Assembly (NCBI GenBank): GCA_036557285.1
Contig: DATBHW010000012.1
Coordinates: 62,001 to 126,000, forward strand
From: Ktedonobacterales bacterium
Lineage (GTDB): Bacteria > Chloroflexota > Ktedonobacteria > Ktedonobacterales > DATBGS01
Reading direction: 5' to 3'
DNA: 64,000 nucleotides
The position numbers and the translations under genes were made by a program. Position 1 is the stretch's first letter. Each line of letters begins with the position of its first letter. The notes under the pieces are model-generated. The model saw only the letters and a list, made by a program, of their open reading frames with translations. It did no database searches and was not told where the DNA came from. Below, piece after piece: positions 48,075 through 63,420 of this stretch.

Positions 48075-48295
48075 TTCTATGCTCGCTTTCTATAGAGGGT
48101 ATGAGCAGGTCTATCGGATAGAGACGCTGTGCGCTGCTTCCTATAGTCTATGCAGAATGCGCAGCTTGTCTTGCCTGGGCATTTTCTTGTATGCTGCCAT
48201 GCAAGATAGGAGATGAAAAAGCGCCACAGTGTTACAGCGGGAGCGAATGGCACTGAAAGAGCCAGATGCACGACTCATTCCAGCCAGGAGATGAA

Positions 48296-48724
48296 ATGGA
48301 GGAAGGGATGACCACCGAGGAACCGATTCGGGTCATAATTGTCGGGGCCGGACACCTGGGAGCCTGGCTCGCCACGCTCCTGGACAAGCAGGGCTATCAC
48401 GTGACCGTTATCGCCCCCAACCCTCTGGATTTCGAGCGATTGGGTAATGATTTCAGCGGGATGACGATCCTGGGCGACGGTACGCAGGCCGAGATTTTGG
48501 AGCGGGCGGAGATCAAGACGGCCAGGGTTCTGATAGCCGTGACGAATCACGATACTGAGAATCTGCTGATCAGTCAGACGGCGCGGGTGATGTATCAGAC
48601 GCCGCTGGTCCTCTGCGGCCTGGAAGACCCGCTGCTCAAAGAGACGTTTCAAGGTCACGGGTTCACGATCATTACGCGGATCGAAATTGAGATTCCGCAC
48701 TTTCTAAAGGTGCTGCCGCAGTGA
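48296..48724 (+). CDS. TrkA-N (Rossmann NAD-binding) domain protein
   Basis: About 142 residues. Starts at ATG 48266, 48296 or 48308 are possible; 48296 has AGGAG just upstream and 48308 has GGAGG. The fold signature RVIIVGAGHLGAWLATLLDK, VTVIAPNPLDFERL and TILGDGTQAEIL is a TrkA-N domain that binds NAD(H), as in Ktr/Trk potassium channel regulators. The TrkA-C domain is absent and no channel gene is adjacent, so it may act with a distant transporter. Confidence 0.85.
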   Translation: MEEGMTTEEPIRVIIVGAGHLGAWLATLLDKQGYHVTVIAPNPLDFERLGNDFSGMTILGDGTQAEILERAEIKTARVLIAVTNHDTENLLISQTARVMYQTPLVLCGLEDPLLKETFQGHGFTIITRIEIEIPHFLKVLPQ

Positions 48725-49399: not shown

Positions 49400-51166
49400 A
49401 TGTCGTCACCTTTCTGGTTTGTCCTTTTGGCGCTGATAGGGTACTTTATCGCCTATCAGTTTTATGGCAAGTGGTATGACCGCAAGGTCTGGAAGCCTGA
49501 TAGCAAGCGCACCACGCCCGCGCATATGTACACGGATGGCGTGGAGTTCTTCCCCGTCAGCAAGTATGTCCTGTGGGGGTATCAATTCAAGAGCGTTGCT
49601 GCGCTCGGCCCCGTCCTTGGCCCCTTCATTGCGCTTCAGTTTGGTTGGCTCCCCGCATTAATCTGGATTGTGGTTGGCAATTTCTTCATCGGCTGGTTGC
49701 AGGACTATGGCGCGATCATGGTCTCCATTCGCAATCAGGGGCGCTCGTTCGGGCCGATCAGCTACGAGTTCACCGGGGCTGGTGGCCGCAAAACTCTGCT
49801 TGGTTTTATCCTGGTGTACCTGCTGATCGTTTCGGCTACGTTTATCTTCCTGATCGCGCTGTTCTGGAAGATATTCCCCGGCACACCTGTTGCTACGCTG
49901 GGCGTTCTCATCACGGGGGTGATAGCCGGGCAACTGCTCTACCGGGCGAAGATGAACATTGGCGTAGTGACCGTGATCTCGCTGATCTTGCTTATACTCA
50001 GCCTGGTCGCTGGCAACTACCTTCAGATTCCCGCCAGCTTCACCACGTCGCTTGGAGACTGGTCCATTCCGTTCTGGGCGGTGGTCTGCTGCATCGTCCT
50101 GTACCTGGGTTCGATCCTGCCGCTGCCCAGGTTCATTCAGCCGATCAACTATGTCTCCTTCTTCCCCACGTTTATCGCGGTGATCCTGATTCTGATCGGC
50201 GCGCTGGTGTCGCCGCTGACAAACATCACGATTCATCAGAGCGCCTGGGTAGGCGCGTATGCCACCGGGCTTGGCCCCATCTGGCCGATTCTGTTTGTTG
50301 CCATCGCGTGTGGCGCGATCTCCGGCTGGCATAGTCTGGTGAGCAGTTCCAGCACGTCGAAGCAGCTTGACATCGAGACCGACGCGCACCCCATCGGCGC
50401 GGGGGCGATGCTCTCCGAAGGGCTGCTGGCGCTGGCCTCTCTGGCGGCGTATGTGGTGGTTGCCAATGCTGGCAGCCTGGGCAGTGTGGGATCGTGGGTA
50501 GTTGGCGCGGTGAGCCTGACCCAGCCGTTCCTGGGTGGGGCGTCGGCTGCCGGTTTCCTGCAAGTCTACTTTGGCGTGGCGCTGATTCTGTTTGCGATCA
50601 CGGTACAATCGCTGGTGACACGCTTCTGGCGGCTGGTCTCGGCAGAGGTAACCGGTGAAGGCGGGTTCCGCGTCTTCGGCCAGAAGCACATCGCTACCAG
50701 CGTCGGTCTGGTGATTCCCCTGGCCTTTGCGATCACGGGAAGCTGGTGGAATCTCTGGCTCTACTTCGGCGGCGCGAACCAGTTGATGGCTGCTCTGGCG
50801 CTCTGGCTTATCAGCATTCATCTGGTGCGCACGCGCGCGCCCAGCCTGTACACACTGATTCCGGCGGTGTTTATGACGGTTACAACGCTGGCGGCGATTG
50901 GCTTCGAGGCGTACTACTTCCTGTACGCGGTGATTCAGGGCAAGCCGCTGGTTTCCACCACCGCAGGCACCCCACTCAGCGGCAAGGTACTCAGCCAGAC
51001 CGCAACCAATGTGGCGCTGGTGTTCAACGGCGTCTTCTTCGTGGTGGGTATTGTCTTGTTTGCGCTGGGTCTGCGGATGGCCTGGCTAGTGTATCAATCC
51101 TACATGCGGTCCCGCCCGGCGTCGCAGGCTCCGGCGGCGGCCCCAGGCATTGCCACTGGCGACTGA
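49400..51166 (+). CDS. cstA: Carbon starvation protein A (peptide or pyruvate transporter family)
   Basis: A 588-residue inner-membrane protein with about 16 hydrophobic helices; GGGAGGGATG precedes the ATG. The N-terminus ends in AYQFYGKWYDRKVWKPDSKR, then YVLWGYQFKSVAALGPVLGP and WLQDYGAIMVSIRNQGRSFG, and later SGWHSLVSSSSTSKQLDIET, all typical of CstA. Relatives import peptides or pyruvate under carbon limitation. The usual small partner YbdD/YjiX is not seen; an unrelated small hydrophobic protein follows after a hairpin. Confidence 0.95.
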   Translation: MSSPFWFVLLALIGYFIAYQFYGKWYDRKVWKPDSKRTTPAHMYTDGVEFFPVSKYVLWGYQFKSVAALGPVLGPFIALQFGWLPALIWIVVGNFFIGWLQDYGAIMVSIRNQGRSFGPISYEFTGAGGRKTLLGFILVYLLIVSATFIFLIALFWKIFPGTPVATLGVLITGVIAGQLLYRAKMNIGVVTVISLILLILSLVAGNYLQIPASFTTSLGDWSIPFWAVVCCIVLYLGSILPLPRFIQPINYVSFFPTFIAVILILIGALVSPLTNITIHQSAWVGAYATGLGPIWPILFVAIACGAISGWHSLVSSSSTSKQLDIETDAHPIGAGAMLSEGLLALASLAAYVVVANAGSLGSVGSWVVGAVSLTQPFLGGASAAGFLQVYFGVALILFAITVQSLVTRFWRLVSAEVTGEGGFRVFGQKHIATSVGLVIPLAFAITGSWWNLWLYFGGANQLMAALALWLISIHLVRTRAPSLYTLIPAVFMTVTTLAAIGFEAYYFLYAVIQGKPLVSTTAGTPLSGKVLSQTATNVALVFNGVFFVVGIVLFALGLRMAWLVYQSYMRSRPASQAPAAAPGIATGD

Positions 51167-51202
51167 AAGTGGCGCATTCCCCGTATCAGACAGTGGCTGT
51201 TC

Positions 51203-51231
51203 AGGTGGCTGGCAATAGCCGCCAGCCACCT
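51203..51231 (+). terminator. Terminator or attenuator after cstA
   Basis: An 11-base perfect stem (51203-51213 with 51221-51231, AGGTGGCTGGC) with a 7-base loop, followed by CTTCTTCTA. It lies 36 bases after the cstA stop and 24 bases before the next gene, so some read-through into the small-protein and ArsA-like genes is possible. Confidence 0.7.
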
Positions 51232-51254
51232 CTTCTTCTAAGGAGCGTCTTGCT

Positions 51255-51581
51255 ATGCCAGAAGATGAGGAAGGTCGTATTCACGAAGGTCTGGGGGAAC
51301 CGGGGGTTCCAGAGGCCAGCGCGCCCCAAAAAGGGGGATGGCGCAGCGTCTTCAAGGGGGTGCTGTATGGCATGGCGTCACACGGGCAGGTGACGGCTAC
51401 CCTGCGCACGCGCATGTACATGGAACATCTCTTTATGTTCATCACGCTGGGCGATATGCTGGGTATCCCGGTGCTGCCCCCCTATTATTCGCTGCAACTG
51501 CTCCCTTACGCTGTCCCCAATGTCGAAAGTTGGAAGCAGCGGGTGTTCCGTGAGCGAGACTTCACGGACGCCATTTATTAA
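51255..51581 (+). CDS. Small protein with hydrophobic segment, paralogue of the one at 55235-55585
   Basis: A 108-residue protein with AAGGAG upstream. The first half is charged and soluble; the second half has MEHLFMFITLGDMLGIPVLP then SLQLLPYAVPNVESWKQR, a hydrophobic segment with a conserved Leu-Gly-Asp/Glu and Leu-Leu-Pro-Tyr. The same pattern occurs in the minus-strand gene at 55235. It may be a membrane anchor or a client of the ArsA-like ATPases next door (33 bases downstream). I do not recognise the family. Confidence 0.75.
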   Translation: MPEDEEGRIHEGLGEPGVPEASAPQKGGWRSVFKGVLYGMASHGQVTATLRTRMYMEHLFMFITLGDMLGIPVLPPYYSLQLLPYAVPNVESWKQRVFRERDFTDAIY

Positions 51582-51614
51582 AGACTGATCACCATTGCTA
51601 GTCAGGAGGCTCTC

Positions 51615-52634
51615 ATGGCCGAGTTGATTGGGGCTGGAGGGCTGAGCAAGTTTTTCCGGCAGCATGGGACGCCGGAGATCGTGATTTTTGCTGGCAAAGG
51701 CGGGCTGGGCAAGACGACATCGAGCGCCAGCCTGGCCTATCATATGGCGCAGAGCGAGGGGAAACGGACCCTCTGCTTCAGCACTGATCCGCAGGCTTCG
51801 CTCTCCGATATTTTCGAGCATGACTTTTATGGCAAGGGGGTGATTGAACTCCTGCCCAGGCTGCATGTGGTGGAGATTGATGCTGACCGGCGGGTTGCCG
51901 ATTACCAGGCCCAGGTCAGGCGGAAGATCATGGATATGTATGGCCTGGACGCGGTACCCAAAGAGATTGACGAGTACATTGATTCAACGTCTGCCGAGCC
52001 AGCCATGTACGAATCGGCAACGTATGATGCGATGGCGGAACTGGTGGCTCAGCGCGATTGCGATCTCTATGTCTTTGATATGCCCCCCTTTGGGCATGGC
52101 GTGCGCATGGTGGCGATGGCCGACATTCTCTCGCGCTGGGTGGATAAGATCACGGAGGCGCGCACCAAAGTTGCCGAATATGACGCGGTGGCGGCTTCGC
52201 TCAAGGGGGCCAAAGCCACCGAAGATATGGTGCTGAAAGAGCTTACGACGATCCGCTCCAAAATCAAGACGTTCACCGATATGATTACGGATCGCCAGCG
52301 AACGGCCTTTTTCATGGTGCTGATTCCTGAGCGGATGGCGATTCTGGATACTGAGCGGGCGCTCCAGATGTTCAGAGACCTGGGCATTACGCTTTCCGGC
52401 CTGGTCGTCAATCAGGTCTATCCGGTGGAGATGCTTGACACTGCCGGGCTGAGTGACTTCACGCGCAAGCGTATCCTGATGCAGCAGCAGTATGTCCAGC
52501 AGATTCAGCGGGTATTCGGCGATACGGTGGTGGCGACGATGCCGATGTTCCCACGAGAACCCAAGGGATTGACGATGCTTGAGGAAGTGGCGGGGTATCT
52601 CATGGGCAAGCAGACGCCAGGGGGAACGGTCTGA
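51615..52634 (+). CDS. ArsA/GET3-like ATPase, first of a tandem pair
   Basis: A 339-residue SIMIBI-class P-loop protein with AGGAGG before the ATG. The deviant Walker A GKGGLGKT is at 27-34, the switch region reads FSTDPQASLSDIF, and the second switch DMPPFGHGVRMV replaces the DTAPTGHT of ArsA/GET3. Helical sections between 100 and 250 fit the client-binding part. Lacks the metal-binding Cys triad of arsenite ArsA. It overlaps the second ATPase gene by one base (TGATG), so a heterodimer is likely, as in the two halves of ArsA. Client unknown. Confidence 0.9.
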   Translation: MAELIGAGGLSKFFRQHGTPEIVIFAGKGGLGKTTSSASLAYHMAQSEGKRTLCFSTDPQASLSDIFEHDFYGKGVIELLPRLHVVEIDADRRVADYQAQVRRKIMDMYGLDAVPKEIDEYIDSTSAEPAMYESATYDAMAELVAQRDCDLYVFDMPPFGHGVRMVAMADILSRWVDKITEARTKVAEYDAVAASLKGAKATEDMVLKELTTIRSKIKTFTDMITDRQRTAFFMVLIPERMAILDTERALQMFRDLGITLSGLVVNQVYPVEMLDTAGLSDFTRKRILMQQQYVQQIQRVFGDTVVATMPMFPREPKGLTMLEEVAGYLMGKQTPGGTV

Positions 52635-53659
52635 TGCAACACACACTCACACAGTTGCTCGACGAGAAACCAGGGCTGCGGTTTATCTTCACTGGCGGCA
52701 AGGGTGGGGTGGGTAAGACGGTGAGCGCCGCCGCGATTGCTATCAGATTTGCCGAACAAGGCAAGCGCGCGCTGCTGGCGTCGCTCAATCCGGTGCATTC
52801 GCTCAGCAGCGTCTTTGGGCAGCCCCTTTCCGGTGGCTCGGTGGCTCCGGTGAAGGGCGTTTCTGGCCTCTTCGCGGTTGAGGTGGAGACGCATGAAGTG
52901 GTGGGTCGCTATCGGGAGAATATTGGGCGTCGGGTGCGGGAGTTCTTGAAGTGGGCCGATATTCCCATAGACGCGAAGCCGTTTGTGGATATTGCTGTGA
53001 CGAATCCGGCGTTCGAGGAGAGCGCGATGTTTGATAAGATGATGGACATCATGTTGGGCGAGCGCGGCAATTATGATGTCATCGTCTTTGATACCGCCGC
53101 CGTCGCCAACGCGGTCCGGCTGATTGGCCTCAGCAAGATTTATGGCCTCTGGCTGGGACGGATGATCGAGAGCCGCAAGCAAGCTCTTTCGCTGCGGGTG
53201 CAGCTTTCGTTCCGCAAGGAGCGTGTGATGGATGAGGTTAAGAAAGACCCGCTGATGGCTGACCTGATCAATATGAACGAGCGCTTCTTGCAGGTGAAGG
53301 ATTTGCTGATTGACCCGGAGCAGACGGCCTTCTTCTTTGTGACGCTGCCGCTGGCGCTGCCTATCGCGGTGGTCAAGCGTTTTATCGGCATGGTGCGCGA
53401 GTATAACATTCCAGTGGGTGGTGTGCTGGTCAACGAGGTGCTTCCGACGGATGTGGTGAGCAGGCATCCAGATGAGACGTACTTGCAGAATAAGTATCAA
53501 GAGCAGCTTGGATATATGCGCGCCATCAAGAACGATCTTGGCGAACTGGTGTGCGGGTTTATCCCGTTGTATGACGGCGAAGTGGTCGGCCTGGAGATCG
53601 TGCGGGTTGTCGCTGGCGATCTGCTGAAGTCCGAGCCGACGTATTGGAGCAGCCTATGA
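52634..53659 (+). CDS. ArsA/GET3-like ATPase, second of the pair with altered switch regions
   Basis: A 341-residue homologue of the gene before it. Walker A GGKGGVGKT is at 21-29, but switch I reads ASLNPVHSLSSVFG (Asp changed to Asn) and switch II reads DTAAVANAVRLIG, without the usual Gly-His. ATP hydrolysis may be impaired, leaving a regulatory half. The C-terminal part (LNEVLPTDVVSRHPDETY-type region) resembles the ArsA/GET3 end. Start ATG 52634 overlaps the previous stop, and its own stop overlaps the next ATG (ATGA at 53656). Confidence 0.9.
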   Translation: MQHTLTQLLDEKPGLRFIFTGGKGGVGKTVSAAAIAIRFAEQGKRALLASLNPVHSLSSVFGQPLSGGSVAPVKGVSGLFAVEVETHEVVGRYRENIGRRVREFLKWADIPIDAKPFVDIAVTNPAFEESAMFDKMMDIMLGERGNYDVIVFDTAAVANAVRLIGLSKIYGLWLGRMIESRKQALSLRVQLSFRKERVMDEVKKDPLMADLINMNERFLQVKDLLIDPEQTAFFFVTLPLALPIAVVKRFIGMVREYNIPVGGVLVNEVLPTDVVSRHPDETYLQNKYQEQLGYMRAIKNDLGELVCGFIPLYDGEVVGLEIVRVVAGDLLKSEPTYWSSL

Positions 53660-54141
53660 ACCAGCATCTTGTGGCGGCAGGGAACTATGTGCTGGGTACG
53701 AGCAATTTTTTGATTTTGAACTTGCCGCAGGGTTGGCGGCTCTTTACCGGCTTGCATCCCGCCGAGGTGGATAACAGTACCCAGGTGCTGGATACGCGCT
53801 GGGTGACGAATGGCCGCGCGAGCTATTTGTTACACAGCGGAGCGCCAGGCGGAAAGGTCGAGCTGGCCGTTCGCGTGGGCCAGGGTGAAGTGAGTCGCTG
53901 GCTGAACCCGCTGCGCCAGGATGGCGCTGCCAGCCAGATGCTGGTGGGTCGGCACCAGGCGTTTTATCGTCTGCGCCAACGCGGGCAACCCTGGCTGAGC
54001 CGCAGCCGGGGGGATACGCTGGAGATGGCGCTCTACTGCGATACGACCAGAAGGACGCTGGCGTTGGAGTTCAGCGGGCCAGAGCGCGAAGAGGACCGTC
54101 ACGCGCTGCTGGAGGCGCTCGGCGATTCACGCTGCCATTGA
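53656..54141 (+). CDS. Unknown protein coupled to the ArsA-like pair
   Basis: A 161-residue protein whose ATG (53656) overlaps the stop of the second ATPase gene by four bases, so it is translated with it. Beta-rich with GNYVLGTSNFLILNLPQGWR, ASYLLHSGAPGGKVELAVRV and GDTLEMALYCDTTRRTLALE; no signal peptide, membrane helix or conserved Cys set. It may be a co-chaperone or an adaptor of the ATPases. Not recognised. Confidence 0.75.
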   Translation: MNQHLVAAGNYVLGTSNFLILNLPQGWRLFTGLHPAEVDNSTQVLDTRWVTNGRASYLLHSGAPGGKVELAVRVGQGEVSRWLNPLRQDGAASQMLVGRHQAFYRLRQRGQPWLSRSRGDTLEMALYCDTTRRTLALEFSGPEREEDRHALLEALGDSRCH

Positions 54142-54154
54142 GGGCGCTGGCGCG

Positions 54155-54808
54155 CTATGAGCGTTTTGTGATGGCCTCGGCGAGTTTGCGCACAGCGGCA
54201 AAGGTGTTTTCTGCGGCCAGAACGGCAGGCGCGGGCGAGAGACTCAGCAGGAGATGCGGCGAAGAGGCGCTGATGGAGAGGCGGATCATCTGCGATTGCC
54301 ATTCATGCAGCAGAGGCGTCAGGGTGGCTACCAGGCGGGCGGCTCCAGCCTGATAGTGGAGCGTATAGCCGTTGATGGTGGTTTGTTCCCAGCCAGGTTC
54401 GGTAATGCGAGGCCGGACATCGCGCTCTGGCTTCGATTGCGAACGATGGGCCTCCAATTCCACGCCCGCTTTGGGCGCTGAGCGCAGTTCCAGACGGATG
54501 ACGAGCAGGTCGCGCCGACCACGCAGCAGGTTGACAAGCCAGATGAGCGCCAGTTCGCGCGACTCCAGCACAATCACGGCGGCAAGTTTCCCGATGGGGG
54601 CAGCCGCGCGTTGGCCGACAAATTGAAAGATGGAGGCGTTCACCCAGCGGCCAGAGAGGTCTTCTGCCTCCATTGCCAGCAACCGTTCGCGCAGCGTGCG
54701 CGCCAGGCGTATCCCGCGCGCGCGGTTCAACCAGACGCCCACAAAATACCAGGCGCCGAGGAAGACGCAGAGTGCAATCAGCACCGGAAGAACGTAGTCT
54801 GGTGGCAT
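54155..54808 (-). CDS. Membrane-anchored protein of unknown function
   Basis: A 217-residue protein. ATG 54808 (PPDYVLPVLIALCVFLGAWY) is chosen because GGAG lies nine bases upstream; starts at 54823 or 54829 have none. A single N-terminal membrane helix is followed by Arg-rich and beta-rich soluble parts (WVNASIFQFVGQRAAAPIGK, VIVLESRELALIWLVNLLRG, HYQAGAARLVATLTPLLHEW). It faces the opposite way to the neighbouring ArsD-like gene, with only 13 bases between the two starts. Not recognised. Confidence 0.75.
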   Translation of the reverse strand: MPPDYVLPVLIALCVFLGAWYFVGVWLNRARGIRLARTLRERLLAMEAEDLSGRWVNASIFQFVGQRAAAPIGKLAAVIVLESRELALIWLVNLLRGRRDLLVIRLELRSAPKAGVELEAHRSQSKPERDVRPRITEPGWEQTTINGYTLHYQAGAARLVATLTPLLHEWQSQMIRLSISASSPHLLLSLSPAPAVLAAENTFAAVRKLAEAITKRS

Positions 54809-54821
54809 AAGGAGATGCTCC
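54809..54821. promoter_or_regulatory. Shared palindromic ribosome-binding site for two divergent genes
   Basis: The 13 bases between the divergent starts read AAGGAGATGCTCC. On the + strand AAGGAG serves ATG 54822; on the - strand GGAG serves ATG 54808. GGAGATGCTCC is nearly palindromic, so one short sequence gives both genes a ribosome site. Promoters must then lie inside the opposite coding regions, giving overlapping 5' transcripts. Confidence 0.6.
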
Positions 54822-55208
54822 ATGAACACAAAAGAACTTCAACGGCCAATCAAGGTTGAGATGGTGGGCCTGCTGCCCACCCTGTTTAGCATGTGCGCAA
54901 GCTGTTGTACAACGGATACGATGGGCGCCTGTGGGATCGATCTTGCTGCTCAGCAAATGCGCGATTACCCGCCAGAAGTGGTTGAGACCAACCAGCGAGC
55001 CGCCGAACTTTACACCAGGCTGCTCAGGGATTATCAGGGTCTGGTGGTTCCGCTGGCAGTCAGCACGACTTCACCGCGCGGCCTCTGGCTTTCTCTGCGC
55101 CATCGGCTCTCATCCGATCTTGCGATTGTGGTCAACAACCGCCGGGTGGTAGCCAATCATGGCGATTACGCCGAACTGCAAGCCGTTATCGAGCAAGAGA
55201 TGGGATGA
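54822..55208 (+). CDS. Cys-rich small protein, ArsD- or thioredoxin-like
   Basis: A 128-residue protein with AAGGAG before the ATG. Cysteines cluster as MCASCCTTDTMGACG (Cys25, 28, 29, 37), recalling the arsenite-chaperone ArsD and thioredoxin-fold metal carriers; the rest (ELYTRLLRDYQGLVVPLAVS, LAIVVNNRRVVANHG) fits an alpha/beta thioredoxin fold. Next to ArsA-like ATPases, a role in handing a metal or a thiol client to them is an attractive inference. No ars operon genes (arsR, arsB, arsC) are present. Confidence 0.7.
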   Translation: MNTKELQRPIKVEMVGLLPTLFSMCASCCTTDTMGACGIDLAAQQMRDYPPEVVETNQRAAELYTRLLRDYQGLVVPLAVSTTSPRGLWLSLRHRLSSDLAIVVNNRRVVANHGDYAELQAVIEQEMG

Positions 55209-55234
55209 ATAGCGGCGCTGCGAGCGATGCGTCG

Positions 55235-55585
55235 CTAATGAATTTCAGGTACCTCTTCAATAATATCTACTTCAGTGAGCTGGCGGTGTTTCCATTGATC
55301 CAGTTCTGGCAAGAGATAGGGCAGTAAGCGCAGCGTGATGACAGAAGTCATCAGAGGAAGGCCCAGGAGTTCGCCGACAATGACCAGATTCACGGCGTCG
55401 CTGTAGCGGGCTTTCTCTTTTTGGAGTTCGTGGAACATCTCAAAGTAGAAGAAACCCCAGAGGAATTGGCGCGCTCCTTGCCCGGCCCGCCGGAGTTGGC
55501 TGCCCAGCGATCTGGTCCAATGTGTTTCGCGCGCTGGTTGGCTGGCTTCACTTGTATCTGGGGGACGTGAGGATGTATCCTCCAT
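55235..55585 (-). CDS. Small protein with hydrophobic segment, paralogue of the one at 51255-51581
   Basis: A 116-residue protein; ATG 55585 with AAAGGAGG some 13 bases upstream. Charged N-terminus, then a hydrophobic segment AVNLVIVGELLGLPLMTSVI followed by TLRLLPYLLPELDQWKHRQL, matching the 51255 gene in the Leu-Gly-Glu/Asp, Leu-Leu-Pro-Tyr and Trp-Lys positions. It is convergent with the Cys-rich gene. The two paralogues frame the ArsA-like cluster. Confidence 0.75.
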   Translation of the reverse strand: MEDTSSRPPDTSEASQPARETHWTRSLGSQLRRAGQGARQFLWGFFYFEMFHELQKEKARYSDAVNLVIVGELLGLPLMTSVITLRLLPYLLPELDQWKHRQLTEVDIIEEVPEIH

Positions 55586-55903: not shown

Positions 55904-57082
55904 TTACTCTGGCCGCCAGATTTGTACGGTGTTATCGCCACCGCCGGAGGCGATGTGTGTGCCATCAGGGGACCAGGCGACGGCAAACACTAAAGCGTGA
56001 TGGTTGCTATAGCGTAATAGCTGGCGGGCGCTGCGCGCGTCCCACACCTGTGCGGTTTTATCGCCAGCAGAGACGATGCGCTGGCCGTCAGGGGACCAGG
56101 AAAGCGACCAGACCGCATCGGTATGCCCATGATAGATTAACTGCTGCCTGCCGGTGATGGGATCCCATACGTGTACGGTTTTATCGAAGGCACCTGAAGC
56201 AACCCGCTGCCCATCAGGGGACCAGGCGACGGAGTGGACTTCGTTGGAATGGCCCTGGTAGATGAGGAGGGTTTTTGCTGTGGCGGCGTCCCACACCTGC
56301 ACCGTCGTATCCTCGCTTCCAGAGGCGATATGAGCGCCGCCTGGCGCCCATGCCAGGGTGTCTATGCCGCTGGTATGCCCCGCGTAGATGGCAAGCACCT
56401 TGCCGGTAGCGGCTTCCCACACCACGACTTGCTGGCTTGCTCCGCCAGAAGCAATACGGTAGGATTGCTGTATACCCTGCTTGATTACCGCCGGCGACCA
56501 GCCAACTGCGCCGAGCCAGCCTGTTGAGTCACGATAGAACGCCAGCGTCTTGCCGCTGGCGGCCTCCCAGACTCGTACTGTCTGATCGTTGCTGACTGAA
56601 GCGATCTGTGTGCCATCGGGCGACCAGGCAATCGCGTCCACTGCTGCTGTGTGGCCGCGATACGTCGCCAACGTCTTGCCGCTGGCGGCCTCCCAGACCT
56701 GGATAATCGTGCTTCCGGCTGAAGCCAGGCGCTGGTTGTCGGGGGACCACGCGACGTTCGTTACAATCGAAGAATGGCCCCGATAAATGAGGAGGGGAGT
56801 AGTTGTCGGTACCGCTGATGTTGCCTGGCCGTTCGCGGTGGGCTGATGTGGGCGCTGAGCGGTTAGTTTCAGCGCCAGCCAGACGCTGGCTCCGCCCACA
56901 GCCAGCCCGACCAGGCCCATCCCGGCGAGCAGTTTGCGCCGCGAGATGCCTGGCGGGGAAGGCGCGCCAGGGTGGTCAGAAGCCTCCTGGTGGGCAGTTT
57001 CAGCCTGCCAGCCACAGCGGACACAGGCGGGCGCTGAATCTGGCAGCGGCTCGCCGCAGGTGGGGCATACGCCTGATTGCAT
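55904..57082 (-). CDS. WD40 beta-propeller protein with N-terminal zinc ribbon and Tat-like anchor
   Basis: A 392-residue protein. It begins with a zinc ribbon (Cys6, 9, 20, 23), then a linker, SRRKLLAGMGLVGLAVGGAS (twin Arg followed by a membrane helix, Tat-signal-like), a Thr/Pro-rich spacer, and seven WD40 blades with GHSSIVTNVAWSPDNQRLAS-type units and GH...W ends. The third and seventh blades lack the usual GH. A scaffold on the outside of the membrane is likely if the twin-Arg segment exports it, but the ribbon ahead of it argues for an anchored cytoplasmic head. Partner unknown. Confidence 0.8.
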   Translation of the reverse strand: MQSGVCPTCGEPLPDSAPACVRCGWQAETAHQEASDHPGAPSPPGISRRKLLAGMGLVGLAVGGASVWLALKLTAQRPHQPTANGQATSAVPTTTPLLIYRGHSSIVTNVAWSPDNQRLASAGSTIIQVWEAASGKTLATYRGHTAAVDAIAWSPDGTQIASVSNDQTVRVWEAASGKTLAFYRDSTGWLGAVGWSPAVIKQGIQQSYRIASGGASQQVVVWEAATGKVLAIYAGHTSGIDTLAWAPGGAHIASGSEDTTVQVWDAATAKTLLIYQGHSNEVHSVAWSPDGQRVASGAFDKTVHVWDPITGRQQLIYHGHTDAVWSLSWSPDGQRIVSAGDKTAQVWDARSARQLLRYSNHHALVFAVAWSPDGTHIASGGGDNTVQIWRPE

Positions 57083-57181
57083 GAGGCTTCCTCGCTTTTT
57101 TGTCCATCATGTGGTATATTATAGGTGTTCGTGCAAGACCAGCGCGGACACCATCTTTTTCTCCACGTCTGGAGGATCCCT

Positions 57182-57550
57182 GGGGATGCTGGGTTTCGAC
57201 AGGTAGGTGTGGGGGAAGATTGCAGGCCGAGGTGCCGGTACGCACTCTCGTTAAACAACCGGCGAACGAATAGCTGCCAAAAAGCAGCCTTCCCTCGCTC
57301 TCGCTGCCTAATCCACAGTGAGGCGACGTCGTCCCGACCTCACCCCGGCGGGTCGGTTCAGCGGCGTCATACAGTCGGGGTGCGATGACGCGGACCGCCT
57401 TCTAAGCGTTATCTAAGACCAGAAGGCAAGCGCATAGGAACCCGGTCGGTGGGGGTCCAAAGCGCCAACTCAAAACGCCGACTATGCCTGTAGTACATCT
57501 TCTTTTTCGCTTACGTGGACGGGGAGTTCGACTCTCCCCCATCTCCACCA
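57182..57550 (+). ncRNA. ssrA: Transfer-messenger RNA (tmRNA)
   Basis: The 5' end GGGGATGCTGGGTTTCGACA and the 3' end GGGGAGTTCGACTCTCCCCC followed by CATCTCCACCA form the tRNA-like part: GGGGATG at 57182-57188 pairs with CATCTCC (57540-57546), and CCA is encoded. The tag frame ends in GCT-CTC-GCT-GCC-TAA (Ala-Leu-Ala-Ala), preceded by a frame reading KKQPSLALAA; the resume codon is not certain. It rescues stalled ribosomes and tags their products for proteolysis. Length 369 is normal. Confidence 0.93.
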
Positions 57551-57552
57551 GC

Positions 57553-57584
57553 GAGGCCAGTCCTGGACTGGCCTCAGCTTTTTC
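57553..57584 (+). terminator. Intrinsic terminator of ssrA
   Basis: GAGGCCAGT and ACTGGCCTC form a 9-base stem with a 5-base loop (57553-57575), then AGCTTTTTCT. A typical rho-independent terminator two bases after the encoded CCA. Confidence 0.85.
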
Positions 57585-57741
57585 TCATCTGGCTCTCTGA
57601 CCCCCGTTTTGACCCTCTTTTCCGCGAGCACATCCTTGTCTAGTACGCGTGTTCTAAGATGGCGAGGCAGACTACGTCTGGGCTCTTTGCTCCTATAAGG
57701 AAGGATGATCGCGTGCTCTGTTTGATGCAGGTCGGGGTTCC

Positions 57742-57893
57742 CTCCCCCATCAGCGGCCTGATGCCGCCCTGGAATATGTGACGGACACGAGGCGTCTGCG
57801 CCTCTGGGTGGGATGGGACCAGGCACAGATGACGGGCGCGGCGCTGGCGGTGAAGCTGCGGGCCTACGTCCGTTATACCCGCTCGTGTACTAC
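57742..57893 (+). pseudogene. Remnant resembling a replication-relaxation family protein
   Basis: A 50-codon stretch with no start reads HQRPDAALEYVTDTRRLRLW, then DQAQMTGAALAVKLRAYVRY, like the Pro-Asp-Ala ... Lys-Leu-Arg-x-Tyr segment of replication-relaxation proteins of plasmids and integrative elements. Neither end is present and the frame closes soon after. It lies about 190 bases downstream of the tmRNA 3' end, a common integration site, so it probably marks an old integrated element. Recognition rests on one short segment. Confidence 0.5.
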
Positions 57894-58338
57894 ATCAAGT
57901 TGGCAAATTTGTAGTTGGTGCTTGATTCTCTTTCCGGGTCACCGTTGGATGAACAGAAAAATTTATTCTTATTGCATAGTCCTATTGCACTGCTTCCCAA
58001 TCAGTGCTACTATAGCGGCGACTAAAAGTGCCCTCAGTAACTGATGCCAATCATCCGAGTCTGATATTCATACCTGATTCGCTTATCACCATTTCTTTTA
58101 CCCAGTGTCTGATCGAGTAATATTGGAAGAGATCGTGCTTCTATTCACATTTTTGTTCGACTCATCGCCTGAATCTTGAAGAGTTTATCCTGATCTGCCT
58201 ACCCGGCGTCCTGTGGCTGGGTTTTTCGCGCCGGTTGGCATTCGTGCTGTAGTGGGTGGAGCAGTCTGTTCGACATTCTGCCTCCATGGTTTCCGAAAGG
58301 GCGGAAGGCAACTTCATCTCAGCGATAAGAGGGCGAAT
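57894..58338. other. AT-richer gene-free stretch upstream of the CHAT gene
   Basis: No gene recognised. The stretch is clearly less GC-rich than most of the window. An in-frame ATG at 58213 would lengthen the CHAT protein by 42 residues, but those look non-conserved. The promoter of the CHAT gene must lie here; no clear hexamer pair is seen. Confidence 0.5.
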
Positions 58339-60639
58339 ATGAAGTATCTCGATTTCGATGTGGAGATTGAGCAACGTGAATCAGGGTATGAGGTGAAAGC
58401 CCGTTCAGAAGCTGGCGATAGCTCCACAATTATGCGGCCCTTTGATGAGAGGGTCTTGGAAAATTACCTCCTGAAGTTGCAGAACACGCTCTTGCGCTCA
58501 GTGAGTCTGCGACGCCAGATGCTTTCGCGTGAGTCGGAAGTGGTACAGGAGTTTGGACAGGTCTTATTTGAGTCTCTCCTCTCAGGCAGCGTGCGCGGCC
58601 TCTATGAGGTAAGCCGGACGCAAGCGTCCCAGAAGGGCCTGGGATTGCGCATACGCTTGAACATCCAAGAACCCAAACTTGCTGCAATCCCTTGGGAATA
58701 TCTCTATGACGCGCCCAGACGGAGCTATGTTTGTCTCTCCACACAAACACCTCTTGTCCGCTATATGAGGATGCCCCAACCGCTGCAATCGCTTCATGTG
58801 GAACCACCGCTGCGTATCTTAGGCATGATTGCCAATCCAAGCGACCAGGAAACATTGGATGTCGAGCGTGAACAAGAGCGTATGCAGAAAGCGCTGGCCG
58901 AGCTAGAGACACAGGGTCTGGTGCGCCTGACCTGGCTGCAAGGGCAAACCTGGCGGGATTTACAGCATGCCCTCCAAGAAAAAGACGCCACCTGGCACAT
59001 CTTTCATTTTATTGGACATGGAGGATTTGACCCTCGTGCTGATGAAGGGGTTATAGCCTTAGCAAACGATCTCAACAAGACGGCGCTCTTGAGTGCTACA
59101 CAGCTTGTAACTTTTCTGGCCGACCACCCCTCGTTACGGCTGGTATTTCTCAATGCCTGCGAAGGAGCCAAAGGCGGGGAGCGCGATGTGTTCTCCAGTA
59201 CAGCATCTATCCTCGCTGGAAGAGGGCTGCCAGCAGTCCTGGCGATGCAGTATGAGATCACCGACCACGCGGCTATTGAGTTTACGCGCGCCTTTTATGA
59301 AACACTTGCCCTGAGCCTACCAGTGGATACAGCGGTTGCCGCCGCACGCCAGGCCGTAAGCATCGCTATCTCCAATACCCTTGAGTGGGGAACGCCCGTT
59401 CTCTATCTTCGTTCATCGGATAGTCAGCTTTTTGAGTTAGGGGATAAGCCGACCGGGCTAAAACCCAGCGGCGCTGCCCTCCCGGCCTCTCGTTCTGCTG
59501 AACAGCGTCTTATAAGCGTTGAACAGGTACACAAGAGAGAGCAGTTGCTTGAAAAAATAGCGCATTACCCCTCCATCATTGCCGCAACGTATGCCAAAAA
59601 AGTGGTGCCGCTGGTGGATGCCGAGTTGGAGCAGGCATACCAGTTCCATCAGAACTTACGAGAACTGGCCGAGTCCATCATCAAATATCTCGTGATGGTG
59701 CTGTGTTCGCGCTACCGCAGAGATACAAGAATACCCGAAAAACAAGATGCAGATGTTGAGCAAGCCTTACAGAGATTAGCACAGCCCTCCTTGGGCGGGT
59801 GGATTGAAGCGTTGAATAAGGCAAGCCGTCTCTATGTAGACGCCTCAGAACAACCCCTAGAGAAACTGACCGCCTTTTATACCGAGAAAGGGCAAGCCGG
59901 TGTCCTGGTGGGGAAGGCCATTGAGAAGATGCAGGATTGGCTCAGGATTGAGGTAAGGAAGCGAAGTAAGCCGCCATTTTGTTATCGGGATTTCTTCGAG
60001 TTGATACGAGAGTATTGTGAGCAACCTGAGGCTTGGGGAGCGCAGTACGCTGCTTTGTCAGAGAAAGAGTACAAAGAACGTGCCGACATCCTCTGCCTGG
60101 CACTGGAACAGACGTTGTTTGATCTGGAATGGTTGGCAGCGTACCCGCTGATTTCACTTCGAGACAGGCAAAAGCAGGTTGATGGCTCCTGGGCATATTT
60201 GCTCGATCTGGGTATCGGGCAGCATGTGACAAGAAATGCTGAACCACTCATCGTTCAGCAACCGCTTCAGACTGGGCACTTGTATCTGTGCCACAGAGTG
60301 AATACAAAAGGCTTTGAGCCACTTTTAGATTTGTATCCGCTTACCGTTTGCGAGGATTGCCCGGTATGCAAGGACCCTGTAATGTTTACTGTGTACCAGG
60401 GAGACCAGGAGCGGCTGGAGTATCACAGCTATAGTTGTGGTCATAGTCTCACCTTGTCTTCCCCTCATGCCAGTCATTTCAGCGCCTATTTGGATGCAGC
60501 CAGTTGGCAGGCAATCTGGAAAACAGACACGGTGCCACCCTCTCCGCCAGAAAATCCTCTGGAACCCTACATCAAAGCCCTGGAGAAGGCCCTAGAGCGT
60601 GTTATGCACTTTTACGAAGGCAGTTCACGTCCGGGCTAA
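58339..60639 (+). CDS. CHAT-domain caspase-like protease (N-terminal part of a split gene)
   Basis: A 766-residue frame; ATG 58339 follows GAGGG. The CHAT protease domain holds the catalytic His227 (FHFIGHGGF) and Cys274 (FLNACEGA), with APRRSYVCLSTQTPLVRYMR before and GLPAVLAMQYEITDHAAIEF and SNTLEWGTPVLYLRS after. The next ~300 residues are helical; a zinc-binding CPVCKDP...SCGHS lies near 675-705. CHAT proteases act as executioners in defence and cell-death systems (for example beside gasdermins or TPR sensors). The frame ends early because of the MITE-like insert; without it, the sequence runs on into the beta-propeller gene at 60775. The last natural residues are around LEKALE. Confidence 0.85.
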   Translation: MKYLDFDVEIEQRESGYEVKARSEAGDSSTIMRPFDERVLENYLLKLQNTLLRSVSLRRQMLSRESEVVQEFGQVLFESLLSGSVRGLYEVSRTQASQKGLGLRIRLNIQEPKLAAIPWEYLYDAPRRSYVCLSTQTPLVRYMRMPQPLQSLHVEPPLRILGMIANPSDQETLDVEREQERMQKALAELETQGLVRLTWLQGQTWRDLQHALQEKDATWHIFHFIGHGGFDPRADEGVIALANDLNKTALLSATQLVTFLADHPSLRLVFLNACEGAKGGERDVFSSTASILAGRGLPAVLAMQYEITDHAAIEFTRAFYETLALSLPVDTAVAAARQAVSIAISNTLEWGTPVLYLRSSDSQLFELGDKPTGLKPSGAALPASRSAEQRLISVEQVHKREQLLEKIAHYPSIIAATYAKKVVPLVDAELEQAYQFHQNLRELAESIIKYLVMVLCSRYRRDTRIPEKQDADVEQALQRLAQPSLGGWIEALNKASRLYVDASEQPLEKLTAFYTEKGQAGVLVGKAIEKMQDWLRIEVRKRSKPPFCYRDFFELIREYCEQPEAWGAQYAALSEKEYKERADILCLALEQTLFDLEWLAAYPLISLRDRQKQVDGSWAYLLDLGIGQHVTRNAEPLIVQQPLQTGHLYLCHRVNTKGFEPLLDLYPLTVCEDCPVCKDPVMFTVYQGDQERLEYHSYSCGHSLTLSSPHASHFSAYLDAASWQAIWKTDTVPPSPPENPLEPYIKALEKALERVMHFYEGSSRPG

Positions 60640-60717
60640 CAGCAATGGATCGCAGTTTGACATGGTTGCTGCAAAGCTTGGTGAAAAGCGAGTCCGCGCA
60701 AAAGTGCATAACAGACT
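60597..60717. mobile_element. MITE-like insertion with 13-base perfect inverted ends and CTAGA flanks
   Basis: GTTATGCACTTTT (60601-60613) is complementary to AAAAGTGCATAAC (60700-60712); adding a T outside and CG/GC inside extends the similarity. CTAGA occurs on both sides (60592-60596 and 60718-60722). The distance between the two CTAGA copies is 126 bases (42 codons), and the frame before and after is the same, so removing one copy plus the insert rejoins the genes as KALEDGNIDEEE. It carries no gene. The bringing transposase is not in the window. The exact duplicated target length is open, since 3-4 unmatched bases lie between CTAGA and the inverted ends. Confidence 0.7.
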
Positions 60718-60774
60718 CTAGAAGATGGCAACATTGATGAGGAAGAGCGCGGTGAAATTGAGACCTGGGCGAAG

Positions 60775-62247
60775 GTGCTGGGCATTTCTGCGGAGCAGGC
60801 TGCTGAGTTAGAAAAACACGTGCGGGACCAACTAAAAGAGCAGCCTGCTCCACCCATCGGTGACACCCAAAACGCATCAATGGCTCCTCCCGCTGGTGAG
60901 CAGCCGCAAGCACCTTCTGAGGTAGACCTCTATCCACCTCCCATTCCTGAAACGCAAGAAAAACTGATAGCCTGCTGGAACCAACCTGTAGAGTCACCAA
61001 TTCAGGTAGCCCTCTTTGGCTCACCAGTACATGCCCTGGCCGTTACCGAAGCGGGGAGTGTATCTGTCTGGAGTGAAGATGGACGCTTCCTCTACCGAGA
61101 GGACGTCCAAGGGCGGCCCTTTCGAGTGGCAGCGCTCGCTCAAAAGGTATTCGTTGGCACCTGGCGAGGGCAGCTCTCCTGCTTTGGGCAGCATGGGCTG
61201 ATCTGGCAAATAGGGCTGGGGAGTCCTATTTCTGCGCTTGCTGTGAGCGCTGGGGAGCCTGAGCTTGTTGCTGGAACCTGGGATGGGCAAATTGTCGCTA
61301 TGCGCTCTGATGGCGCCATACTTTGGAGAACAGCCGTAGATGATGGTATCTCTGCCTTATCGGTTACCCCAGCGGGTCGCGCAGTGGCTGTCGGGACTTA
61401 TGCTGGCTCCCTGGCTACTTTCGATACGCAAGGCAATCCAGGGTGGTTACGTGATATGCAAGCTCCGGTGGCTGGGGTGGCCTTTGCTGAACATGGCAGC
61501 GCAATCGTCGTTGCCACGCAAGACCGCCTGGTCACGCGAATCCATCTCCACACGCAAGAAAATGTATGGAGGTACAGCGTTCCAGGCTCACCACGAAGCC
61601 TATTGCTTTCGAACAGTGGTCACCGCCTGATTATGGCGTGTGGAGAGGGATCAATCCTGATCTATGCAATTGATCCAGAGATGGAAGTGCTGAAAAAGTA
61701 CACCATCGCAGATATGACTCAGTTGCTGCTCTCCCCGCTCTCTCCGGAGGGTCACTTTATCCTGGCGGTTTCGTCTCGCAGCGGCCTCACCTTTCTTGAT
61801 AGTCGCAAGAATATTTCCACCAGCGAAGATCAGAATCCTGTCACCTGCGCCGCGCTCTCGCCCGATGGACAGTATACCCTGCTCGGCCATGCTACAGATG
61901 TTTCCCTGCACCGCCTGGCCCGGCCACAATTGCGTGTGGAGTTCCAGCCCGTGGGCGAACTTCAACAGGGGCGTTCCACCCGATTGAAGATCATCCTGCA
62001 CAACACTGGCGAGCGGGCGGCAAGAAACATTGCTTTGCAGCTAGGCGAGGTGATTGGCTGCACAGAAATCAGCTTACCCGATGAGCTACATGCGGGAAAG
62101 ACCGTTGCATCCGAGAAGCAATCGGTTACGCCTAAGGCCAGTGGAGCGTTGCCAGTTACCAGCCGGATTACCTACATGGATGATTTAGGCGTTGACTACG
62201 CTCAAACGGATTTGCACATTATGGATGTCCTTCCAGGGAGCCAATGA
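60775..62247 (+). CDS. Beta-propeller protein with acidic helical N-terminus (C-terminal part of the split CHAT gene)
   Basis: The listed start is GTG 60775; no ribosome site is seen. The same frame is open from 60712 and encodes LEDGNIDEEERGEIETWAKV then LGISAEQAAELEKHV, a TerB/EF-hand-like helical module, before the GTG. Then come a Pro-rich linker, about seven propeller blades of the quinoprotein/WD40 type (ALAVTEAGSVSVWSEDGRFL, LVAGTWDGQIVAMRSDGAIL), and a CARDB-like beta-sandwich (STRLKIILHNTGERAARNIA). It may no longer be translated or may be made as a separate protein. Once joined to the CHAT part, it would have been a sensor for the protease. Confidence 0.75.
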   Translation: MLGISAEQAAELEKHVRDQLKEQPAPPIGDTQNASMAPPAGEQPQAPSEVDLYPPPIPETQEKLIACWNQPVESPIQVALFGSPVHALAVTEAGSVSVWSEDGRFLYREDVQGRPFRVAALAQKVFVGTWRGQLSCFGQHGLIWQIGLGSPISALAVSAGEPELVAGTWDGQIVAMRSDGAILWRTAVDDGISALSVTPAGRAVAVGTYAGSLATFDTQGNPGWLRDMQAPVAGVAFAEHGSAIVVATQDRLVTRIHLHTQENVWRYSVPGSPRSLLLSNSGHRLIMACGEGSILIYAIDPEMEVLKKYTIADMTQLLLSPLSPEGHFILAVSSRSGLTFLDSRKNISTSEDQNPVTCAALSPDGQYTLLGHATDVSLHRLARPQLRVEFQPVGELQQGRSTRLKIILHNTGERAARNIALQLGEVIGCTEISLPDELHAGKTVASEKQSVTPKASGALPVTSRITYMDDLGVDYAQTDLHIMDVLPGSQ

Positions 62248-62265
62248 ATGTAAGGAGTACACCTT

Positions 62266-63420
62266 ATGAACAAAAGGCAACCACCAGATGATGAACACAG
62301 CCTCGATCTGTCAGACATGCGGGAAATGGATATTCAGGATTTCAACTTCCCAGATATGGGGTCCATTCCCGATCCGAACTTCCCTGATGTGGGATCACCC
62401 CTGTCAGCGCTCCCCTCTTTGCATATCCCCCTGCCAGAGCAGAAGTTTACCGAGGTACCACAATTGGGGCAGTTTCATCTCCAGAACCTGAAGCTAGATT
62501 TCACTGCTGGAGGCACTGCGCGAGGCCGACCATATAAAGCTCTCCTGGCTATTGGTGGAACGGGCCAGGCTGCTAGAACGCTGGGTACCGCGTTTGGGGT
62601 GGCGCTCTTGCCAGATGGTGCCATCTATGTCGCTGATTTTATGGATGATGGCGGGCAGGCGAGAATCCAGGTGTTCGATAGCAGCGGCAATCTGGTCCGG
62701 CTGCTCCGTCAATTCGAGGTTGGAGATGCACAGGAGGCTTTTGATACCCCTGCCGCGCTGGTGGCTGCCCAAGAGGGTTCACTCTACCTCGCTGATATGG
62801 GCCTTGGGTGTATTAAGCAGATTGCATCAGATGGGCAGGTGCTGGGAGTGCTGGGAGAAGAGGGCATTGCATCGAACCAGCTCAAGGCTCCCCAGGGAAT
62901 TGCTCTGGACGCAGCCGGGAATCTCTGCATCGCCGATAGTGGCAACAGCCGCGTGCTTATATGGGATCAGCAAGGGAGATGCCTGCTCATTCTTGGGATT
63001 AACCAACCAGATGAGGACGGAGACTATTTGCAGGCTGGTGAGCGCCCCGGAGAGTTTGATGAGCCGCGCGGGGTAGCCGTTGATGCCGCCGGGAATATTC
63101 TGGTAGCTGATACCAACAACCATCGCATACAGAAGTTTGGTCCTGCCGGAAACCTGCTGCAAGCATTTGGCGAGGAGGGAAAAGAGGTTGGTCAACTCTG
63201 GTATCCAGAGCGCATCCAGGTTGATACGATGGGAGCAATCTATGTTTCTGATCTGAATGGAGGGCGACTCCAGAAGTTCGATGCGAGTACTCGCTTTGTG
63301 TATGAACTCCTTCTCCCAAAGGATGCAGGAACAGTAGCCGATTTTCGGGTAGTTACTGAAGGGCATATTTTTGTCGCGCTGCGTCAACCTGGCCTGGTTC
63401 TGAAACTTGAGGTTGCTTGA
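62266..63420 (+). CDS. NHL-repeat beta-propeller protein
   Basis: A 384-residue protein 18 bases after the propeller gene. The first ~80 residues are acidic and Pro-rich with repeats of NFPDMGS/NFPDVGS. NHL blades follow: GVALLPDGAIYVADF, GIALDAAGNLCIADSGNSRV, GVAVDAAGNILVADTNNHRI, RIQVDTMGAIYVSDLNGGRL, with the usual FG..G.G..QL.-.P spacing. No signal peptide or membrane helix. NHL propellers bind proteins or RNA; here probably a partner in the CHAT module. Confidence 0.85.
   Translation: MNKRQPPDDEHSLDLSDMREMDIQDFNFPDMGSIPDPNFPDVGSPLSALPSLHIPLPEQKFTEVPQLGQFHLQNLKLDFTAGGTARGRPYKALLAIGGTGQAARTLGTAFGVALLPDGAIYVADFMDDGGQARIQVFDSSGNLVRLLRQFEVGDAQEAFDTPAALVAAQEGSLYLADMGLGCIKQIASDGQVLGVLGEEGIASNQLKAPQGIALDAAGNLCIADSGNSRVLIWDQQGRCLLILGINQPDEDGDYLQAGERPGEFDEPRGVAVDAAGNILVADTNNHRIQKFGPAGNLLQAFGEEGKEVGQLWYPERIQVDTMGAIYVSDLNGGRLQKFDASTRFVYELLLPKDAGTVADFRVVTEGHIFVALRQPGLVLKLEVA

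Follow-up and report, generated by a model that had tools for sequence, protein, structure and literature searches.

The carbon starvation protein CstA, the small protein Cory and an ArsA/Get3-type ATPase are encoded by a conserved, linked gene module, which is described here from a Ktedonobacterales bacterium (Bacteria; Chloroflexota; Ktedonobacteria; GenBank assembly GCA_036557285.1). The window, a stretch of 64,000 nucleotides (contig DATBHW010000012.1, positions 62,001 to 126,000 of the forward strand), holds eight genes of this cluster at 49400-55585: cstA, cory-a, A1, A2, orf161, tm224, a thioredoxin-like Cys gene (txl) and cory-b. The linkage of cstA, cory and arsA can be stated with high confidence, and together they apparently form a nutrient-uptake module spread over many bacterial phyla. 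It is proposed, tentatively, that the ATPase and its small adaptor cause CstA, a secondary carrier, to be driven or gated by ATP. The ArsA-ArsB principle would then have an unrelated second example, present in at least five phyla, and in Chloroflexota the ATPase would be a hydrolytically asymmetric heterodimer with a fixed Asp-to-Asn replacement.

Few starvation-induced transporters are as well known as CstA, which needs a small partner protein. In hundreds of genomes (one scan confirmed 331 loci), the module supplies a second CstA partner set, which includes an ArsA/Get3-superfamily ATPase and takes the place of YbdD wherever this was checked. The component families are known, while the module and its asymmetric Chloroflexota form appear undescribed; among open-licence papers, none was found that names cory-CC-star or pairs a carbon starvation protein with an ArsA family ATPase. 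The module gives a testable function to genes annotated only as "ArsA family ATPase" or "cory-CC-star protein" and is well suited to testing whether LeuT-fold carriers can be powered or gated by soluble SIMIBI NTPases. The Chloroflexota A1-A2 pair would serve as a natural one-site-dead ATPase for studying two-site cooperation.

Conservation of the cstA-cory-arsA module

A scan of species genomes with an alignment of CC-star Cory confirmed 331 loci, of which 80 were kept from Bacillota, Gammaproteobacteria, Gemmatimonadota, and Acidobacteriota. In 79 of these 80, cstA is followed by cory and accompanied by an arsA ATPase gene (inverted, on the opposite strand, in L154), and the 80th locus is cut by a contig end. 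An earlier scan of genome contigs with the A1 protein alone gave no match, nor did tblastn of one Chloroflexota Cory against plasmids. Plasmid loci of Cytobacillus, Paracoccus, and Pseudochrobactrum carry cstA, cory-CC-star, and one ArsA ATPase gene, and the module genes overlap in the Paracoccus locus. The distances of CstA, ArsA, and Cory correlate pairwise (r 0.89-0.95), in part through shared species history. The gammaproteobacterium Halorhodospira clusters with Bacillota for all three proteins, which indicates that the whole module was transferred as a unit.

In a Natronospirillum metagenome-assembled genome, a second cstA lies directly 3′ of cstA-cory-arsA (L192:3285-8076). Four haloarchaeal ArsA matches on plasmids were inspected and none is linked to cstA; one has halo-CC-star proteins and the rest have unrelated neighbors. 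At L113:4620-7407, a haloarchaeal arsD-arsA pair is followed by two distinct CC-ended small proteins (halo-CC-star HcsL and HcsS), so true ArsA, too, has partners that end in CC.

Within Chloroflexota, 400 genomes were surveyed, and 46 loci were taken from those with matches. The Cory model NF041419 matches in 39 genomes and CstA in 39, with both in 35 (Fisher p 2.6e-41). Most mismatches are assembly ends: G222 has a cut cory beside cstA, and the G140 assembly stops just past cstA. G126 and G197 genuinely hold CstA only, of a different subtype, and chance probably explains the Cory matches in G305 and G392 (E about 8e-4). The commonest order is a thioredoxin-like gene, cstA, two cory genes, A1, and A2, with tm224 on the opposite strand, and the cory-a position immediately 5′ of A1 is kept. 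These surveys bear out the first-pass annotation of the region as an unrecognised ArsA/GET3-like cluster, in that its genes stay together across phyla. That annotation had noted that cstA adjoins the cluster, which is correct as to position; but it began the unit at 51255 and left cstA outside, whereas cstA, from 49400, belongs to the unit and is key to its function.

In four Chloroflexota genomes (G198, G216, G230, and G289), cstA is unlinked, but none of cstA, cory, A1, and A2 is missing. The linkage is therefore functional and not merely positional. In three of these four, the unlinked cstA still adjoins a thioredoxin-like gene. Two of the genomes (G230 and G289) carry a third Cory paralogue together with tm224, apart from both cstA and the ATPases (L070 and L101).

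The exact gene order of the window recurs in G179 (L076), a member of a different family, and orthologues of cory-b are found in L065, L076, and L109. The closest relatives of every part of the cluster are in G179, G226, and G254. The window genome (G000) has both CstA and Cory, and no match to either was obtained in the other listed genomes of its order. Together with the identity of the nearest relatives, this suggests that the window genome likely gained the module horizontally.

The paired ATPases A1 and A2

A1 (51615..52634, + strand) and A2 (52634..53659, + strand) are ArsA/Get3-type ATPases that match ArsA_ATPase PF02374 (E 3.6e-65 and 1e-52). Both exceed the 135-bit cut-off of TIGR00345, a broad ArsA/Get3 model, with 217.9 and 187.5 bits, as does the Cytobacillus ATPase with 287.4. 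Their genes overlap by one base (TGATG), and A2 overlaps the third gene, orf161 (start 53656), by four (ATGA); these tight overlaps had been pointed out before and are read directly in the sequence. The first-pass annotation had also proposed that one half was altered as if regulatory, and the wider comparison supports it. A1 would be the catalytic half, with Asp-58 kept in switch I and Gly-His kept in switch II, and Asp and Gly-His are present in 34 of 34 genuine A1 and 79 of 79 single ATPases. In A2, Asn-52 occupies the switch I Asp position (codon 52787-52789), and Ala-Asn replaces Gly-His in switch II. The Asn and Ala-Asn combination is found in 32 of 32 genuine Chloroflexota A2 and in none of the 113 A1 or single ATPases (counts that leave out L106_192 and L107_629, weak matches outside clusters). 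In Get3, the switch I Asp activates or positions the attacking water (PMC10248533). A2 is presumed hydrolysis-dead and should bind but not hydrolyze ATP because the water-positioning Asp is replaced. A1-A2 should thus be a heterodimer with one active site.

In the ATPase tree, the A1 clade (support 100) and the A2 clade (99) are sisters (98), and together they join the single CstA-linked ATPases (99) at support 85. The ArsA halves of ars operons (L113 and L021) and other ArsA-type proteins of the phylum lie outside this CstA-linked group. Placement with standard arsenite ATPases had been named beforehand as one outcome that would speak against the first-pass annotation, and the ATPases fall elsewhere. 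Judged from these sequences, an ancestral single ATPase became A1 and A2 in Chloroflexota.

The ATPases lack the residues that define better-known relatives. No alignment column has Cys in at least 40% of A1, A2, or single ATPases, and the Zn-binding CxxC is found in 0 of 35 A1, 1 of 33 A2, and 0 of 79 singles. The insert after switch II has a Get3-like length, not the short ArsA type, and is hydrophilic; A1 and singles have a mean of 1.9 Met, Phe, or Trp residues in it and A2 has 4.3, compared with 6 in 3zq6 and 8 in 3ug6. Because they have no conserved cysteines and a hydrophilic insert, these ATPases are by definition neither an arsenite pump nor a tail-anchor carrier. The best PDB matches include archaeal Get3-like proteins. 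Get3/TRC40, the tail-anchored protein targeting factor, shares the P-loop, the switch motifs, and the approximate length of the insert, but it differs in its Zn CxxC and in the hydrophilic insert and dedicated operon with a polytopic carrier seen here.

Scores against ArsA models are low: A1 reaches 89.5 and 127 bits and A2 87.4 and 114 bits against cut-offs of 650 (TIGR04291) and 800 (NF041417), although these are two-domain models that single halves cannot fully reach. The mycobacterial BagA/BagB pair (Rv3679-Rv3680) likewise consists of paired ArsA-fold ATPases, solved together in PDB 6bs3, but its similarity to A1 and A2 is only distant (37-45 bits against 400 for BagA, NF053622; 34-36 bits against 521 for BagB, NF053621). 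We know of no link of BagA/BagB to CstA or Cory.

CstA, Cory and the action of the module

CstA (49400..51166, + strand) is a 588-residue transporter of the PF02554 family (E 2.4e-104; 350 bits against a gathering score of 27). Its AlphaFold model (pTM 0.81) has its best Foldseek matches in LeuT, AdiC, and the NSS family, and the predicted fold is of the LeuT/APC type. It scores 161 bits against the E. coli CstA equivalog NF011590, for which 1188 are needed.

Cory-a (51255..51581, + strand; 108 residues) and the more diverged cory-b (55235..55585, - strand; 116 residues) encode the two Cory proteins at the borders of the region first annotated. Their suggested paralogy is confirmed by matches to NF041419 (cory-CC-star), for which NCBIfam names no function, with E values of 7e-9 and 2e-8. 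At 35.5 and 33.9 bits, they fall below the 80-bit cut-off that the Cytobacillus Cory exceeds with 125, and they are best regarded as a diverged branch of the same family. The C-terminal Cys-Cys is present in 80 of 80 single-type Cory and in none of 84 Chloroflexota Cory, including those of the window. The hydrophobic end ascribed to both small proteins does not form a clear membrane anchor (19-residue Kyte-Doolittle maxima 1.4 and 2.0). The suggested role of GET3-type membrane clients is not supported either: they look soluble and are co-inherited with CstA, and the ATPases lack a Met-rich hydrophobic insert. Of the 32 loci that hold both A1 and A2, 29 have two or three cory copies, against one per locus in single-ATPase genomes. 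Cory was thus duplicated along with the ATPase, which is what a fixed ATPase-Cory complex predicts.

In E. coli, CstA-family carriers occur in the neighborhoods cstA-ybdD and btsT-yjiX-yjiA. YbdD is required for pyruvate uptake by E. coli CstA (PMC5847655), and Salmonella co-regulates cstA1 (btsT) with a small ORF and yjiA (PMC3875573). YbdD/YjiX (PF04328) was found in 0 of 400 Chloroflexota genomes and in 0 of 17 other module genomes sampled, all 17 of which have CstA. Both systems place a small protein after the carrier, and YbdD and YjiX end in Arg-Cys-Cys, as do nearly all single-type Cory. An SIMIBI-class NTPase gene adjoins in the BtsT system as well, but it encodes a COG0523 GTPase and not an ArsA/Get3-type ATPase, and the Chloroflexota Cory differ further in being duplicated and in lacking Cys-Cys. 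Homology between Cory and YbdD was considered and is undetectable beyond the Arg-Cys-Cys end (no PF04328 match; hhalign probability 0.7%). In all the genomes checked for this, Cory takes the place of YbdD as the small partner of CstA. For CstA-family carriers there are thus at least two kinds of CC-ended small partner, which appear interchangeable, and some or all members of each kind are accompanied by a gene for a SIMIBI-class NTPase.

Txl (54822..55208, + strand; MCASCCTTDTMGAC) is a thioredoxin-like Cys protein with CxxCC in the window and CxHCE in most orthologues. Its 25 homologues are mostly encoded directly 5′ of cstA in Chloroflexota loci; CxxC is invariant among 15 aligned members, usually as HCxHCE, and the family profile matches thioredoxins weakly (E 0.002). 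The protein had been likened to ArsD outside any ars operon; the absence of an ars operon holds, but the ArsD assignment does not (no ArsD Pfam match in 15 members; hhalign 0.2% against one ArsD). In 14 loci of Bacillota and Gemmatimonadota, a shorter relative (hhalign 88.5%) is encoded between cstA and cory, in some cases with a CCGGVC motif, as in the Halobacillus protein. Since Chloroflexota Cory lost Cys-Cys while txl keeps CxxC, txl may have taken over a cysteine function, and it probably supplies the redox or metal function of the Cory Cys-Cys of other phyla.

The sequence data establish a partnership of these proteins, not which action it performs: energizing or gating, assembly, or maturation. 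There is about an even chance that the ATPase dimer, docked through Cory, energizes or gates the LeuT-fold CstA, by analogy with ArsA on ArsB. CstA would carry pyruvate or a small substrate like it, and Cory would be its obligatory cytosolic partner in the place held by YbdD or YjiX with E. coli CstA or BtsT. The ATPase dimer would dock on CstA via Cory as a standing complex, and its ATP cycle would drive or gate the carrier. In Chloroflexota, the ancestral homodimer would have become the A1-A2 heterodimer, in which A1 hydrolyzes ATP, whereas A2 binds it without being able to position the attacking water. One site would then fire per cycle, with A2 as an ATP-sensing clamp and the two Cory paralogues serving the two faces. 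The ArsA-ArsB-ArsD pump resembles this arrangement in its ATPase superfamily, its two halves (two genes here), its carrier, and its Cys accessory of thioredoxin-like fold; it differs in having ArsB in place of CstA, in its metal-binding cysteines and separate clade, and in its ArsD.

In favor of energizing or gating are the co-occurrence of Cory with CstA and their joint presence even where unlinked, the conserved gene order, the correlated distances, the absence of YbdD, the switch residues of A1 and A2, the joint duplication of Cory and ATPase, and the LeuT fold of the CstA model. Several points weigh against energizing or gating. In E. coli, the proton gradient powers CstA and BtsT with no ATPase of this type (PMC7730263), so transport in itself does not require ATP. 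The NTPase beside BtsT in E. coli (YjiA) belongs to a metallochaperone family, which favors a maturation role. The predicted Cory model is poor (pLDDT 58), no predicted or measured Cory-ATPase-CstA contact was obtained, and shared history accounts for part of the distance correlations.

It is less probable that the ATPase and Cory are assembly factors that fold, insert, or stabilize CstA in a Get3-like cycle with one polytopic client and then leave. A single dedicated client would account for the strict pairing with CstA, and the Get3-length insert and archaeal Get3-like PDB matches are consistent with such a cycle. However, the insert is hydrophilic, A1 and the singles do not have the Met/Phe/Trp-rich groove of archaeal Get3, and the ATPases have no Zn CxxC. 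E. coli CstA needs no such factor, and a permanent operon that pairs ATPase and Cory one to one points to a standing complex.

A metal or redox maturation pathway is improbable. Here, CstA or Cory would receive a metal ion or a thiol/disulfide state from the ATPase, the Cory Cys-Cys, and txl, a task that YjiA, a COG0523 protein, might perform in btsT-yjiX-yjiA. The shared Cys-Cys end of single-type Cory, YbdD, and YjiX fits such a pathway, as do the Cys protein of Chloroflexota clusters whose Cory lost it, the Halobacillus CCGGVC protein, and the co-regulated btsT neighborhood. Against it, the ATPases have no conserved Cys, and the likeness of Cory to YbdD ends at Arg-Cys-Cys. To our knowledge, CstA has no metal need.

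It is very unlikely that the pair merely adjoins cstA and serves arsenite efflux, as an ArsA/ArsD-like ATPase, or the general targeting of tail-anchored proteins: the ArsA/GET3 family matches and the ArsD-like cysteine grouping of the window txl are outweighed by the separate clade, the absent metal cysteines, scores far under the ArsA, BagA/B, and NosAFP cut-offs, the lack of an adjoining ArsB or ArsR, and the constant presence of CstA.

Other genes of the cluster and the window

Orf161 (53656..54141, + strand) encodes a protein with no Pfam or NCBIfam match. Its phmmer relatives are found only in L065, L076, and L109, which belong to the subclade of the window (G179, G226, and G254). Tm224 (54155..54829, - strand) is predicted to have one N-terminal membrane helix (19-residue Kyte-Doolittle maximum 2.33) and a cytosolic domain. 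It has 25 homologues in cluster loci and is kept in most Chloroflexota clusters. A lone TrkA-N domain protein of 152 residues is encoded 5′ of cstA at 48266-48724.

Beyond the cluster, the region 55904-63420 may be a CHAT effector cluster. In it, the gene for a CHAT-domain protein (58213-60639) precedes those for two beta-propeller/NHL-repeat proteins, and the CHAT gene set is adjoined by the gene for a WD40 protein (55904-57082, - strand) that has a zinc-ribbon-like stretch in its N-terminal part. Near the start of the window, a UvrD-type helicase (998-5026) begins with an IrrE-like M78 peptidase domain and ends with a PD-(D/E)XK nuclease domain.

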